Source: an uncultured Bacteroidales bacterium (GTDB taxonomy: Bacteria > Bacteroidota > Bacteroidia > Bacteroidales > F082). Taken from it: 64,000 bases of DNA. The notes under the pieces were generated by a model, which did no database searches, was not told where the DNA came from, and saw only the letters and a program-made list of their open reading frames with translations. Of this stretch, positions 5,916 through 40,034 are shown in pieces. The stretch lies in contig CAMYXP010000001.1 of NCBI GenBank assembly GCA_947303085.1, forward strand, positions 62,001 through 126,000. Direction: 5' to 3'. The position numbers and the translations under genes are program-made. Within the stretch, counting starts at the first letter, position 1. Every line of letters starts with the position of its first letter.

Positions 5916-7675
5916 TGGGCACGTTGTTAAAAATTGAGAATCTGCATGTTTCTTTCCTTCGCGACGGCGAATGGAACGAATCAGTGCATGGTGTCAGTTT
6001 TGAGGTGCCGAAAGGCAAAACCCTTGGAATCGTTGGCGAGTCGGGTTCCGGAAAGTCGGTGAGCAACCTCGCGGTGATGCGCCTTTTGAACGAGAAACAA
6101 GCGAGAATCACAGCCGATGAAATCACCCTCGATGGGAAAGATATTCTGAATATTAACGAAAATCAGATGCACGACATTCGCGGCAAGCGCATCGCCATGA
6201 TATTCCAGGAGCCGATGACATCTCTAAACCCCGTGTTCCAGTGCGGTTTTCAGGTGACAGAGGCGATTCTTGCTCACGAAGACGTTACCGAAGAAGAGGC
6301 AAAGGCCCGCACCATATCCCTGTTCAAAAAAGTGATGCTGCCACGCCCTGAGTCCATCTATAAGAGCTACCCTCACGAGCTCTCTGGCGGCCAAAAACAG
6401 CGCGTGATGATTGCCATGGCACTGGCCTGCAACCCGGAATTGCTCATCGCAGATGAACCTACCACAGCGCTCGATGTTACCGTTCAAAAAGAGATTCTGA
6501 AATTGTTGAAGCATCTTCAAAAGGGCGCATCCGAGTGCTCAGAGGCATCTGAGTGCTCCGAGAACTCTGATAATGCCCCGTGCTCAATGTCAATGATCTT
6601 CATCTCGCACGATCTTGGCGTCGTCTCCGAAGTCTCTGATTACATCCTCGTTATGCACAACGGCCGCGTTGTCGAGTTCGGCGAATCCTCTAAAGTCCTT
6701 AATGCCCCTAATGACCCCTACACCAAGGGTTTATTAGCTTGCCGCCCTCCCATGGACTTCCGTCTAAAGCGCCTCCCAATAGTGAAAGAGTTCCTCGACG
6801 GCACCTGGAGCGACACTGCCGATTTTAAGCAGCAACTCATTGTCACTCAACAAGAAAGAGAATATCATCTAAAAGAAATATACAGCCACGAGCCTATCCT
6901 TAAGGTTGAGCATCTTAAGACATGGTTTCCGCTCAAAAAAGGCGTGTTCAACCGTGTCTATGACCACGTGAAAGCTGTCGATGACGTGAGCTTGGATGTT
7001 TATCCTGGCGAGACGCTCGGCCTGGTGGGCGAGTCGGGATGCGGAAAGACGACCCTCGGGCGCTCGATTTTACGTCTGGTAGAGCCTTCCGATGGCAAGA
7101 TTATCTTTGAAGGCAAAGATGTTATGTCGCTGAAGGGCAACGACTTGCGTGAATATCGCAAACATGCGCAGATAGTGTTCCAAGATCCTTATTCGTCGCT
7201 GAATCCGAGGATTCGCATCGGCGACGCGATAGCGGAGCCGATGTTGGTGCATGGTCTTGAACCTGACGCTAAGAAACGCCGCGACAAGGTGTGCGAGCTG
7301 CTCACCGAGGTCGGACTTCAACCCGAACATTATCAGCGTTATCCGCATGAGTTTTCTGGAGGTCAACGACAGCGTATCTGCATTGCGAGGGCACTGGCGG
7401 TGCACCCGAAACTTATCATCTGCGATGAGTCGGTGTCGGCTCTCGATGTCTCAGTTCAGGCACAGGTTTTAAATCTGTTGAACCGACTCAAAAAAGACTT
7501 CGGATTCACCTATATCTTCATCTCTCACGACCTTAGCGTCGTTCGCTTCATGTCCGACCGCATCCTCGTGATGTACAACGGAAAGCCAGTGGAATTAGGC
7601 GATGCCGACGAGATTTTTAACAACCCTAAAAACGAATATACAAAGAAGTTAATAAACGCAATTCCCAAAATATGA
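5915..7675 (+). CDS. Dipeptide/oligopeptide ABC transporter ATP-binding protein, two fused ATPase domains (DppD-DppF type)
   Basis: Two Walker A ([16 protein letters not shown]) and two signature motifs ([16 protein letters not shown]). ATG at 5915 overlaps the upstream stop (TGATG); the track start at 5702 is an upstream extension. Confidence 0.92.
6527..6580 (+). repeat. 18-bp tandem repeat (2 good units plus a degenerate third) inside the ABC ATPase gene
   Basis: GCATCCGAGTGCTCAGAG / GCATCTGAGTGCTCCGAG / AACTCTGATAATGCCCCG; encodes [18 protein letters not shown]. Confidence 0.85.
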
Positions 7676-8880
7676 AAACAATAAAAGAAATCTACCGCAT
7701 CGGTCACGGCCCTTCATCCTCTCACACAATGGCTCCTCGCTTCGCTGCTGAGCAGTTCCTCGAGCGTCATCCTGATGCCGCTGCCTTTGAAGTCACACTT
7801 TACGGAAGCCTCGCCGCCACTGGCAAAGGTCACTTCACCGACGTCGCCATCCTCGAAGTGCTTAAGCCTCACGCCAAAGTAAACATCGTGTGGCAGCCGA
7901 AAATATTTTTGCCATATCATCCTAATGGCATGACATTCAAGGCTTTTGATGCAAATGGCAGAGTCCTTGAAGAATGGACTGTTTACAGCGTTGGCGGCGG
8001 TGCTCTCGAAGAGGAAGGGAAGCCTTCTATCATTCCCGACATCTATCCGCTGACGAAGATGACCGACATCATGAAATGGTGCGAGGAATCGGGAAAGACT
8101 TATTGGGAATACGTGCTTGAGACTGAAAACGACGATAATTTGATTCCGCATATCAAAGATGTTTGGAGCACCATGAAAGAGGCCGTTGAGCGTGGTCTCC
8201 GCACCGAAGGCCGCTTGCCTGGACCACTGAATCTGCCAAGAAAAGCTGCACAATACAACATCAAGGCAATGGGATACCAGCACACTTTAAGAAGCCGCGG
8301 CTTGGTGTTTTCTTACGCCCTCGCAGTAGCTGAAGAAAACGCCTCGGGCGGACTCATCGTCACCGCGCCTACTTGTGGCTCTTGCGGTGTGCTGCCTGCC
8401 GTGTTGTATCACCTTTATAAAAGCTATAATTTTGACGAGGTGCGCATCTATCGTGCCTTGATAACCGCCGGGCTTATTGGCGATATCGTGAAAACCAACG
8501 CTTCGATCTCAGGTGCCGAAGTCGGTTGCCAGGGCGAGGTAGGAGTGGCCTGTGCCATGGCGGCCGGTGCCGCTTGCCAACTATTTGGTGGCAGCGTCGC
8601 TCAAATCGAATACGCCTGCGAGATGGCTCTCGAGCATCACCTCGGCATGACCTGCGATCCGGTCTGTGGTCTGGTCCAGATACCTTGCATCGAGCGTAAC
8701 GCCTTCGCCGCCGCCCGCGCCCTCGACGCCAACATATACTCAACCTTCACTGATGGCCGTCACCGTGTCTCATTCGATAAAGTGGTCACTACCATGAACA
8801 AAACCGGTCGCGACCTGCCATTTTTATACAGAGAAACCTCCGAAGGAGGTCTCGCTGAAGACTACAGACAAATGGAATAA
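7672..8880 (+). CDS. sdaA: L-serine ammonia-lyase (single-chain L-serine dehydratase)
   Basis: GPSSSHTMAPRFAA N-terminus; TAPTCGSCGVLPAVL; GAEVGCQGEVGVACAMAAGA; MTCDPVCGLVQIPCIERNA. Confidence 0.95.
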   Translation: MKTIKEIYRIGHGPSSSHTMAPRFAAEQFLERHPDAAAFEVTLYGSLAATGKGHFTDVAILEVLKPHAKVNIVWQPKIFLPYHPNGMTFKAFDANGRVLEEWTVYSVGGGALEEEGKPSIIPDIYPLTKMTDIMKWCEESGKTYWEYVLETENDDNLIPHIKDVWSTMKEAVERGLRTEGRLPGPLNLPRKAAQYNIKAMGYQHTLRSRGLVFSYALAVAEENASGGLIVTAPTCGSCGVLPAVLYHLYKSYNFDEVRIYRALITAGLIGDIVKTNASISGAEVGCQGEVGVACAMAAGAACQLFGGSVAQIEYACEMALEHHLGMTCDPVCGLVQIPCIERNAFAAARALDANIYSTFTDGRHRVSFDKVVTTMNKTGRDLPFLYRETSEGGLAEDYRQME

Positions 8881-8888
8881 CCCTTTTC

Positions 8889-8930
8889 GTCATTTCGACC
8901 GGAGCCGATAGGCGGAGCGGAGAAATCCTC
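8889..8930 (+). repeat. REP-like repeat, copy B
   Basis: GTCATTTCGACCGGAGCCGATAGGCGGAGCGGAGAAATCCTC. Confidence 0.75.
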
Positions 8931-8956
8931 TGCCAAGGAAGGCGCGAAGCATGATC

Positions 8957-8994
8957 GTCATTTCGAGCGAAGTCGAGAAATCCTCTGCCAAGGT
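8957..8994 (+). repeat. REP-like repeat, copy C (left flank of GIY-YIG ORF)
   Basis: GTCATTTCGAGCGAAGTCGAGAAATCCTCTGCCAAGG; same TCCTCTGCCAAGG tail as copy B. Confidence 0.8.
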
Positions 8995-9001
8995 AGGAAA
9001 A

Positions 9002-9331
9002 ATGAATGAAAGTTATATATACATAATGACCAATTATTACAGAACAACTCTGTATATAGGAGTGACATCTGATCTGATAAGAAGAGTCTATGAACATAAA
9101 AATCATTTGATTCCAAATTCTTTTTCAGATAAATATCATTGTGAGTTATGTGTATATTATGAGAAATATAATGACATTAATCAGGCAATAAACAGAGAAA
9201 CACAATTAAAAACTTGGAGTAGAAAGAAAAAAGACAACTTGATTAATTCAAAAAATCCTGATTGGAAAGAATTAGTTAATAATAATGAAATAATGAATAT
9301 TGATGAGTTAAAAATGGACAATGTTGGTTGA
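9002..9331 (+). CDS. GIY-YIG domain endonuclease (UvrC N-terminal domain-like, single domain)
   Basis: MNESYIYIMTNYYRTTLYIGVTSDLIRRVYEHK is a canonical GIY-YIG motif; AT-rich relative to neighbours; ATG at 9002 in frame with track ORF 8951. Confidence 0.9.
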   Translation: MNESYIYIMTNYYRTTLYIGVTSDLIRRVYEHKNHLIPNSFSDKYHCELCVYYEKYNDINQAINRETQLKTWSRKKKDNLINSKNPDWKELVNNNEIMNIDELKMDNVG

Positions 9332-9368
9332 GGATTTCTCGACTCCACTCCGTTCCGCTCGAAATGAC
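9330..9368 (-). repeat. REP-like repeat, copy D (right flank of GIY-YIG ORF, inverted)
   Basis: GAGGATTTCTCGACTCCACTCCGTTCCGCTCGAAATGAC, inverted relative to copy C; overlaps the ORF stop. Confidence 0.8.
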
Positions 9369-20873: not shown

Positions 20874-21395
20874 TTATTTGTTTAATTTATCAGTTAATAA
20901 TTCTAATGTTCTCAAATTTTTGTCATAAATCTGCTCGGCGAGAGCCATCTGGCGTTCTTCCGGCATCGGTGCCATCTCTGCAAACACGTCGCCCATGTCG
21001 AGCAGGTCGTGAATCACCGCGTTGATCTGCATCTTGGTCGAGTCGTCGACGTTTTTCATCACTTCTTCGAGGTTATAGATGGCTTCGTCGACTCTGTCGT
21101 TGTACACCTTACGCATCTCAACTAATCTATTGTCAGCGGTTTGTGGCACTTGGTCGGTTATTGTGCCGGCATCGAATTTCAATCCTGTCACAATCACGAA
21201 TACCGCTACTGCCGCTGCTGCCGCTATTGTGGTCCAAGTTAACCAAAGACGCCTGTCATTCCGAGCGCCTTCGGCGCGAGGAACCTGCTGCGCTTTTTGT
21301 GTAAGCCTTTTCTCGAACCTCTCGCGGCTTCCCTCCGGCATCTTCACATCATCAAATGCCTCTCGGTTGTTTCTTATTTTTTGTTCTATATTCAT
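20874..21395 (-). CDS. Putative anti-sigma-factor-like single-pass membrane protein
   Basis: MNIEQKIRNNREAFDDVKMPEGSRERFEKRL..., one TM (WTTIAAAAAVAVFVIVTG); directly downstream of an ECF sigma gene; ATG at 21395 rather than track start. Confidence 0.6.
   Translation of the reverse strand: MNIEQKIRNNREAFDDVKMPEGSRERFEKRLTQKAQQVPRAEGARNDRRLWLTWTTIAAAAAVAVFVIVTGLKFDAGTITDQVPQTADNRLVEMRKVYNDRVDEAIYNLEEVMKNVDDSTKMQINAVIHDLLDMGDVFAEMAPMPEERQMALAEQIYDKNLRTLELLTDKLNK
21255..21291 (+). repeat. REP-like repeat, copy E, inside the anti-sigma-like CDS
   Basis: GTCATTCCGAGCGCCTTCGGCGCGAGGAACCTGCTGC. Confidence 0.8.
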
Positions 21396-21429
21396 GTTTA
21401 TTTGTTTGTTTCGTTTTATTTGTTTGGGT

Positions 21430-21495
21430 TTCCTCGCTCCGCTCGGAATGACAACCGCTGTCATTCCGAACCACGTTAGTGGTGAGGAATCTCGT
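21430..21495. repeat. REPIN-like inverted pair (copies F and G)
   Basis: TTCCTCGCTCCGCTCGGAATGAC-AACCGCT-GTCATTCCGAACCACGTTAGTGGTGAGGAATCTCG. Confidence 0.85.
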
Positions 21496-33238: not shown

Positions 33239-33304
33239 GTTTCCTCACACTTCGTGCTCGGAATGACAATGCGCTGTCATTCCGAACGGAGTGAGGAATC
33301 TCAT
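33239..33304. repeat. REPIN-like inverted pair (copies H and I)
   Basis: GTTTCCTCACACTTCGTGCTCGGAATGAC-AATGCGCT-GTCATTCCGAACGGAGTGAGGAATCTCA. Confidence 0.85.
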
Positions 33305-37725: not shown

Positions 37726-37769
37726 GTCATTTCGACTATAGCGAAGCGGAACGGAGAAATCTCGTGCAA
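37726..37769 (+). repeat. REP-like repeat, copy J
   Basis: GTCATTTCGACTATAGCGAAGCGGAACGGAGAAATCTCGTGCAA, starts immediately after hemW stop. Confidence 0.75.
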
Positions 37770-37834: not shown

Positions 37835-40033
37835 ATGCAGACTGGCAAAATCGAGAACGGCAAGTTGGAAATGGTCGACAAATTCGTCCGTTATACCAAC
37901 ATGAACATCTTCCTGACTGGTAAGGCCGGCACGGGAAAGACAACGTTTTTGCGCGGTCTGGCTGAGAATCCGACGAAACGCCTGGTGATTTTGGCACCTA
38001 CAGGCGTCGCCGCCATCAATGCAGGCGGACAGACTATCCACTCGTTTTTCCAACTAGAGTTCGGACCTCAAGTTCCCGATGATTCTGCAGGTAAAGATGC
38101 GATTCATCGCGTCTCAGCAGTGCAATACCAGAAATTCTCTGCTGTCAAACTGAAAATCATCCGTTCGCTGGAATTGCTGGTGATTGATGAGATTTCGATG
38201 GTGCGTGCCGATTTGCTCGATGCCGTTGATGCCGTTTTGAGACGTGTGCGCCGCAACGACAAACCGTTTGGAGGTCTTCAGGTGCTGATGATCGGCGACA
38301 TACACCAGCTCGCCCCGGTTGCAAAAGAAGAGGAATGGGCTTTGCTTCGTGATTATTATAAATCGGTGTATTTCTTTGATAGTCATGTGCTTACAAAGAC
38401 GCCGTATTGCTGCATCGAGCTTGAGCATATCTATCGTCAGGAAGACAGAAAGTTTATCGACATATTAAATAAGGTGCGCAACAACTGCCTCGACAGCGAA
38501 AGTCTGGCGGTTTTAAACAGCCACTATCATCCCGATTTTGAGCCATCCGACAAGGACGGCTACATCACCTTGATGACGCACAACCGTCAGGTGGATGAGA
38601 TAAACGAAAGTAAGCTTAATGCGCTGAAAACCAGGCTGTTGAAGTTTGAAGCAAAGATCTTTGGAAACTTCCCCGAGACCTCATTCCCGACCAAGGAGAT
38701 ACTCGAACTGAAAGTCGGAGCGCAGGTGATGTTCGTGAAAAACGACCCCTCGCCTGAGAAGATGTATTTCAACGGAAAAATCGGGCGAATCGTAGGCTAC
38801 GACGAAGATGACGGTCTGCAAGTGCAATGCGATGACGAAGTGATTGACGTTCAGCCTGTTACATGGCAGAATTTCGAATATAGCATCAATGATGAGACCA
38901 AAGAAATTGAGGAGAAGGAAGTAGGAAGCTTCACGCAGATTCCGCTCAAACTGGCATGGGCGATAACGATTCACAAAAGCCAGGGCTTGACGTTCGACAG
39001 GTTGATTTTGGATGCAAGTCTCGCCTTCGCGCACGGTCAGGTTTACGTGGCTTTGAGTCGCTGCACCTCGCTCGAAGGTCTTGTTTTGAAAGCAAAATTA
39101 TCGCAGAGTGGCTTGTTTAACGACCTGACAATCAATCAGTTTGTGGCTGAATTGCCATCAAGGGAGCCGAATGAGGAGCAGTTTGAGTACAACAAAAAGC
39201 TTTATGAGTCGCAAATGTTGTTCGAACTCATTGATTTTCATGATATTGAGAGCGATTTAAACGGCATCAGGAAGGTGGTTTTCGCCAACAAAGGCAGTTT
39301 CGACGCTTCGGTTAACGAAAAAATATCGCCGAAAGGGCAAAAATTCCACGAGGAAGTGGTTGAGGTGTCGGAAAAATTCAAGCGTCAGATTGGTGGTATT
39401 TTAAAAGATAACTTCCAGATTGACAATAATTTACAGCTTCAAGACAGAGTTAAGAAAGGTTGCTCCTATTTCTTGGACAAGCTAGCCGATTTGGAAGAGG
39501 TTTCCAGTATGTCGTTCGAGACCGACAACAAAGCCGTTAACGATCAGATAAAGAAGGAGTTAGAGGTCTTTCGGACTGATTTCTATGTTAAAACAGCTTG
39601 TTTGGAAAGTTGTTTGGGTGGCTTTGAGATAAAGAAATATTTAAAGGTTAAAAATAAGAAAGTCGTTGAGGCTGAGGAACTTGGGAAAAAGAAAGAGAAG
39701 AAGCTAAAAGAAAAACGCGAGAAAGGTTCGTCGGTCAAGCGCACGAAAGAGCTTATTGACGAGGGTCTCACAATCGATGAAATCGCCGAAAGACGAGGAA
39801 TGACGCGCACTACCATCGAGCAGCACGTGGCGGAACTTGTTTTGAACGGAGAGGTCGAGGCGAGAGATTTTATGAGCAAGGAGCATTACAACAATATCGT
39901 GGAATACTTTGAGGAGACTCATGATTCGTCGCTTGGCAGGGCGCGCGATGTGCTTGGCGACGAATACTCGTGGGGCGAACTCAGAATTGTACTAAATGAG
40001 ATGAAACGAGATTCCTCGCTTCGCTCGGAATGA
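37835..40033 (+). CDS. PIF1-like AAA helicase with C-terminal helix-turn-helix domain
   Basis: IFLTGKAGTGKTTFLRGL; LAPTGVAAINAGGQTIHSFFQLEFGP; VIDEISMVRADLLD; ITIHKSQGLTFDRLILD; C-terminal TKELIDEGLTIDEIAERRGMTRTTIEQHVAEL. Confidence 0.93.
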   Translation: MQTGKIENGKLEMVDKFVRYTNMNIFLTGKAGTGKTTFLRGLAENPTKRLVILAPTGVAAINAGGQTIHSFFQLEFGPQVPDDSAGKDAIHRVSAVQYQKFSAVKLKIIRSLELLVIDEISMVRADLLDAVDAVLRRVRRNDKPFGGLQVLMIGDIHQLAPVAKEEEWALLRDYYKSVYFFDSHVLTKTPYCCIELEHIYRQEDRKFIDILNKVRNNCLDSESLAVLNSHYHPDFEPSDKDGYITLMTHNRQVDEINESKLNALKTRLLKFEAKIFGNFPETSFPTKEILELKVGAQVMFVKNDPSPEKMYFNGKIGRIVGYDEDDGLQVQCDDEVIDVQPVTWQNFEYSINDETKEIEEKEVGSFTQIPLKLAWAITIHKSQGLTFDRLILDASLAFAHGQVYVALSRCTSLEGLVLKAKLSQSGLFNDLTINQFVAELPSREPNEEQFEYNKKLYESQMLFELIDFHDIESDLNGIRKVVFANKGSFDASVNEKISPKGQKFHEEVVEVSEKFKRQIGGILKDNFQIDNNLQLQDRVKKGCSYFLDKLADLEEVSSMSFETDNKAVNDQIKKELEVFRTDFYVKTACLESCLGGFEIKKYLKVKNKKVVEAEELGKKKEKKLKEKREKGSSVKRTKELIDEGLTIDEIAERRGMTRTTIEQHVAELVLNGEVEARDFMSKEHYNNIVEYFEETHDSSLGRARDVLGDEYSWGELRIVLNEMKRDSSLRSE

Positions 40034-40034
40034 C
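40007..40034 (-). repeat. REP-like repeat, copy K, encoding the helicase C-terminal tail
   Basis: CGAGATTCCTCGCTTCGCTCGGAATGAC; read as RDSSLRSE*. Confidence 0.8.

Follow-up and report, generated by a model that had tools for sequence, protein, structure and literature searches.

What is a small nuclease gene doing between inverted copies of a short repeat? The question is raised by a locus in a 64,000-nucleotide stretch of an uncultured Bacteroidales genome (contig CAMYXP010000001.1; the whole stretch is hereafter the window), in which a stand-alone GIY-YIG nuclease open reading frame (ORF) is bracketed by a repetitive extragenic palindromic (REP) sequence of the form GTCATTTCGA...GAGAAATC. 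GIY-YIG enzymes nick or cut DNA, and homing enzymes occur among them. We consider it likely that positions 8957–9368 of the window (perhaps from 8889) are an autonomous copy of a small selfish REPtron-like element, in which a GIY-YIG nuclease replaces the Y1 transposase. The element would consist of a CGTC-tagged REP, a stand-alone GIY-YIG nuclease gene and an inverted REP. An earlier note, made from the sequence alone, had likened the locus to the REP/RAYT relationship with just this replacement, and the likeness is upheld by the bracketing of related nuclease genes, the match between nuclease clades and repeats, the repeat counts and the existence of units that run from tag to tag.

The nuclease gene and its repeat

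Exact pattern matches placed three repeat copies where the earlier note had seen them, with C and inverted D bracketing the nuclease ORF and B preceding C (Table 1), and confirmed that copy D overlaps the end of the gene, the TGA stop codon (9329–9331) falling in the CCTCA tail of D. The product, put at 110 amino acids in that note, has 109 plus the stop. It is a member of the GIY-YIG superfamily on the combined evidence of the motif, the catalytic Tyr/Arg/His/Glu residues and the predicted fold: PF01541 was matched in 25 of 25 homologs, Y7, Y18, G20, R28, H32, E66 and N85 are invariant in the alignment of these 25 sequences, and the AlphaFold2 model (predicted local distance difference test score 92.7) has as its closest PDB folds UPF0213 (1zg2), Slx1 and the UvrC N-domain. 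The window ORF carries the GIY-YIG domain only, with no Y1 HUH transposase between its REPs, and the protein had no match in a library of defence systems.

Within the window's own genome (2.31 Mb, 12 contigs), the GTCATTTCGA...GAGAAATC pattern has 61 matches compared with none for the reversed pattern used as control, so the repeat is not a product of chance. Five GIY-YIG matches were found in the same genome, comprising a 598-aa protein of UvrC size, a 266-aa protein and three short stand-alone ORFs. Two of the three stand-alone ORFs are bracketed by the GTCATTTCGA...GAGAAATC repeat, and the third by another, TTCGACAAGCTCA... / ...TGAGCTTGTCGAA. This third nuclease (L002, G000:C1:12149-12376) is divergent, and its TTCGACAAGCTCA-type family has only two exact copies of the common form in the genome; it may have arrived recently or be a relic.

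Cognate pairing of nucleases and repeats

As a bracketing score we took the best inverted match between the 160 nt upstream and the 160 nt downstream of each stand-alone GIY-YIG ORF. Across 60 congeneric genomes with 66 such ORFs, 54 ORFs (82%) were bracketed at a score of at least 24, compared with 0.7% of 2225 random positions of the same gap at the same loci. On a maximum-likelihood tree, seven repeat types fell one-to-one on seven nuclease clades, with six changes, which is the minimum, against a mean of 37.1 after shuffling. Homologs that lack the window's repeat, which the earlier note had named as potentially damaging to the association, do exist, but they have different, matching bracket repeats of their own.

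Repeat copies in relatives ranged from 3 to 215 per genome. Genomes encoding a nuclease were rich in its cognate repeat (area under the curve 0.91–0.97 for types F, A, D and E, and 0.92 for V, n = 3), as far as such statistics can be read given incomplete metagenome-assembled genomes (MAGs), shared ancestry and the occurrence of F and V repeats in one shared sub-lineage. The F nuclease was found in 0 of 44 genomes with two or fewer F copies, and among all genomes with two or fewer copies of a repeat a single one carries the cognate nuclease, namely the window's own, with a divergent A-type protein. The genome-wide repeat counts agree independently with the match between clades and repeats.

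Many of the brackets fit one template, GTCAT-XXX-GA ... GA-X'X'X'-ATC, where X' is the complement of X. Ten compensated stem triplets occur on it (TTC, TCC, TGC, TCT, CTC, GTC, GCT, CCC, CCT and GTT), the window family having TTC. By such a compensated stem change a sister variant, GTCATTCCGA...GAGGAATC, departs from GTCATTTCGA...GAGAAATC, and in relatives a separate nuclease clade goes with this variant. The distinct copies of the F/V group show pairing at the variable stem position in 136 of 136 (T-A in 112, C-G in 24) and, for the base within the GA step, in 132 of 136 (C-G in 90, G-C in 32, A-T in 10), a compensation that points to an imperfect hairpin with a stem starting AT. Of 110 copies, 67% have C and 33% T immediately 5' of GTC, and none has A or G, which defines a CGTC/TGTC tag.

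Recurrence in other phyla

A GTDB-wide scan covered 80 named loci from Bacteroidetes, Ignavibacteria, Alpha-, Gamma- and Deltaproteobacteria, Cyanobacteria, Chloroflexi, Patescibacteria and others. At a score of at least 28, 39 of 79 loci (49%) were bracketed compared with 1.2% of random positions, and the brackets were recognisable as CGTC/TGTC REPs. The co-occurrence of stand-alone GIY-YIG ORFs with such repeats, for which the earlier note had proposed a survey, is found among congeners and across phyla alike. Bradyrhizobium and Micavibrio are among the hosts in which the association recurs (examples of brackets are given in Table 1), and a CTC-stem repeat beside the nucleases of two cultured Pedobacter genomes is present in 41 and 60 copies. 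Bradyrhizobium sp. RD5-C2, the genome of locus L214, holds 173 copies of GTCATTGCGAG...GCAATC, yet the nuclease found there has CGC-stem brackets; a second nuclease, cognate to the GTCATTGCGAG...GCAATC repeat, may be present in this strain.

Evidence for movement

One congeneric genome (G035) contains two units, on contigs C84 and C104, that are 97% identical over approximately 430 nt, exactly from CGTC to GACG, and have unrelated flanks. Repeats also occur as pairs without the gene: in a set of three close relatives, the head-to-head orientation (+-) accounts for 24 of the 37 close pairs, with spacers in length classes of 14–16, 33, 38–41 and 57–58 nt. Several of these classes share leader and trailer sequences with particular nuclease units (for example CTCNTTTAACGGGAACAAT and TCCGACAAT), and the dimers therefore fit internal-deletion derivatives of such units. 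At L111 (G052) and L115 (G039), tandem 139-nt ORF-less dimers adjoin the nuclease unit, 11 nt apart, which suggests local amplification.

The window locus lies between a serine dehydratase gene (7672–8880) and a gene for a LigT-family RNA 2',3'-cyclic phosphodiesterase, whose homologous part begins at about 9375, and the same site can be followed through relatives. Empty sites, which the earlier note had suggested looking for, are present in G032 and G049 (0–2 nt); an ORF-less dimer occupies the position in G041 and G043, and a nuclease unit in G000, G052 and G035. The ORF decays in places, being broken by a TGA stop codon in G035 and reduced to remnants in G041. Two further loci hold different nuclease sub-lineages at the same position in different species. 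In two cases (A191887 and A184419, each compared with G052) the interior of the unit differs between nearly identical outer flanks, the trace expected of gene conversion or homing between REP sites. Further congeners (loci L068, L070, L071, L074, L077 and L081) have unrelated repeat families, CTCGCAGATTACACAGATAAC... and GACTTTAGTCTTTAGACC..., between the dehydratase and ligT genes, as if this intergenic site were a general landing place.

A proposed mechanism and its alternatives

From these patterns we infer REP binding and cutting by the nuclease, a strand preference, and cutting as the driver of copying. The nuclease would be the dedicated partner of its REP family, recognising the REP through its tag and the identity of its stem (the template above, with XXX = TTC), and would cut at or beside the REP, probably in single-stranded DNA. 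The single-strand part of this proposal was prompted by the Ssn nucleases of Neisseria, small GIY-YIG enzymes that, according to Chenal and colleagues (Nature Communications 2025), reportedly cut a repeated sequence (NTS) in single-stranded DNA and have thousands of homologs. Repair of the cut would then copy the unit between REP sites and sometimes to a new site, and the ORF-less head-to-head pairs with their short conserved spacers would be non-autonomous derivatives, similar to miniature inverted-repeat transposable elements (MITEs) or REPINs, carried by the same enzyme. Whether this extends to the stand-alone GIY-YIG nucleases of many phyla, we regard as an evenly balanced question. They would then be the dedicated mobility enzymes of CGTC-tagged REPs and a further means by which short palindromes spread, through cutting at specific sites, probably single-strand, followed by copy-in repair; a code of three stem bases would pair each clade with its repeats, and miniature derivatives would arise as a by-product.

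Several observations weigh against a selfish element of this kind. Co-inheritance of the brackets with the gene could alone yield part of the match between clades and repeats. The earlier note had held that repeat numbers independent of the nuclease would speak against a link; abundance does track the cognate nuclease, but up to 122 repeat copies persist without a detected F nuclease in 8 of 16 repeat-bearing genomes, some of them incomplete MAGs. Repeats thus last longer than the nuclease in half of the congeners that bear them, and a strict rule of joint presence is too simple. Short F copies are not stably folded, DNA nearest-neighbour energies of single copies being no better than those of shuffled sequences, and the case for a hairpin therefore rests on covariation instead of predicted stability. 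Flank identity in the comparisons of swapped interiors was 84–99%, in intergenic regions that change fast. Lastly, neither a target-site duplication nor an insertion motif was seen beyond the C/T before GTC, and the proposed mechanism does not account for entry to new sites.

The persistence of repeats would suit a nuclease that serves its host by cutting the repeat in single-stranded DNA, whether incoming or exposed, for instance to modulate transformation or recombination, as is reportedly the case for Neisseria Ssn. The repeats would then be address labels that the nuclease does not move, and one enzyme can serve hundreds of sites. We think this unlikely, since such a role does not account for tag-to-tag units duplicated at unrelated loci or for empty, dimer and nuclease states at one site, and both the decay of the ORF and the presence of several divergent copies in a genome suggest a selfish gene, not a domesticated one. 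Slightly less probable again is a free-standing homing endonuclease whose ORF merely homes into the spacers of REP dimers that were there before it, the REPs having a greater age and some other means of spread. That GIY-YIG enzymes include homing enzymes, that different nuclease lineages sit at the same site in relatives and that ORF-less dimers alternate with ORF-bearing units at one locus all agree with such invasion, but the dimers share the leader and trailer of the ORF unit and so resemble deletion derivatives, the duplicated stretch takes in the REPs and ends exactly at their tags, and repeat abundance tracks the cognate nuclease. Chance, or passive hitch-hiking of short AT-rich ORFs that tolerate intergenic spacers rich in REPs, draws on the preference of REPs for intergenic DNA (PMC3733652) but was rejected as highly improbable in the face of the congener bracketing, the one-to-one match of clades and repeats and the recurrence across phyla.

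Other repeats in the window

The earlier note had described the same repeat as scattered through the window without the ORF. This holds for one more exact copy, the remaining copies belonging to the sister variant (Table 1). One of the latter (21255–21285) sits in the coding frame of an ORF at 20874–21464 (-) adjoining a sigma-factor-like gene, to which it contributes a peptide like VPRAEGARNDR, and the copy at 21443–21452 seems to create a false upstream start for the same ORF.

Table 1. Repeats and nuclease gene of the window, with brackets of homologs at named loci elsewhere
Feature	Position or locus	Strand	Remarks
REP copy B, GTCATTTCGACC...CGGAGAAATC	8889–8927	+	Preceded by C, giving the CGTC tag; exact match to GTCATTTCGA-N-GAGAAATC
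REP copy C, upstream bracket of nuclease ORF	8957–8982	+	Exact match to GTCATTTCGA-N-GAGAAATC
Leader CTCTGCCAAGGTAGGAAAA, between copy C and ORF start	8983–9001	+	
Single-domain GIY-YIG nuclease ORF	9002–9331	+	109 aa + stop; PF01541 E=1e-11
REP copy D, inverted downstream bracket	9333–9368	-	Exact match to GTCATTTCGA-N-GAGAAATC
Solitary REP of the B/C/D family	37726–37761	+	
Sister-family REP GTCATTCCGA...GAGGAATC	21460–21491	+	DNA hairpin z=-3.46
Sister-family REP GTCATTCCGA...GAGGAATC	33276–33300	+	
Sister-family REP GTCATTCCGA...GAGGAATC	40010–40034	-	
Further sister-family copy	21255	+	
Further sister-family copy	21443–21452	-	
Further sister-family copy	33258–33267	-	
dRS3-like repeat CCGTCATTCCCGCGAAAGCGGGAATCCA bracketing a homolog	L205		Alphaproteobacterial MAG
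Bracket TGTCATCGCCCGGCTCGACCGGGCGATCCAG	L214		Bradyrhizobium
Bracket CGTCATCCCAGGGCTTGACCCTGGGATCCA	L196		Rhizobium
Bracket GTCATTGCGAGGAGCGAAGCGACGAAGCAATC	L174		Chryseobacterium

Comparison with known systems

The CGTC-tagged REP superfamily was defined by Di Nocera et al. 2013 (PMC3733652), with hosts that include Bradyrhizobium and Micavibrio, and was described as apparently without a dedicated transposase. The repeats reported here resemble it in their CGTC/TGTC tag, a stem starting AT, head-to-head dimers and an occurrence in Bacteroidetes and alphaproteobacteria, and differ from it as described in bracketing a dedicated nuclease gene. A candidate enzyme is thereby supplied for a repeat class, known in several phyla, that was said to lack one and whose spreading agent the defining survey left open. 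Through the pairing of gene and repeat, the question of what spreads these REPs becomes testable in hosts that can be cultured, for example Pedobacter, Chryseobacterium or Bradyrhizobium. The pairing also offers a ready set of nucleases with their targets, whose specificity is predicted by a change of three stem bases, as material for studying how DNA hairpins are read by GIY-YIG enzymes.

The nearest solved structures by both sequence and fold are UPF0213 proteins (PDB 1zg2 and 1ywl), deposited as hypothetical proteins. A literature search combining GIY-YIG with REP, RAYT, REPIN and MITE, outside which the Ssn paper fell, gave no report of such genes bracketed by or moving with REPs, and RepRanger 2025 mentions no nuclease. 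With Ssn, as that system is reportedly constituted, the present nucleases share a small stand-alone GIY-YIG protein, a cognate short repeat in hundreds of copies and homologs that each have their own sequence; here the short palindromic repeat likewise occurs in many copies, both in the window's own genome and in relatives. The tag-to-tag mobile unit, the ORF-less derivatives and the same-site replacement, which are not known to be features of Ssn, set them apart. The likeness is strong and lowers the novelty of the nuclease, which probably belongs to the Ssn family.

REP/RAYT systems use a Y1 HUH transposase and a GTAG tag, whereas the present elements have a GIY-YIG nuclease and a CGTC/TGTC tag, and nothing here points to a covalent tyrosine-DNA intermediate. 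In the remaining respects the resemblance to REPtrons and REPINs is close, both having a gene between inverted REPs, palindromes with a tag, REP pairs that spread together and REPs specific to each clade.
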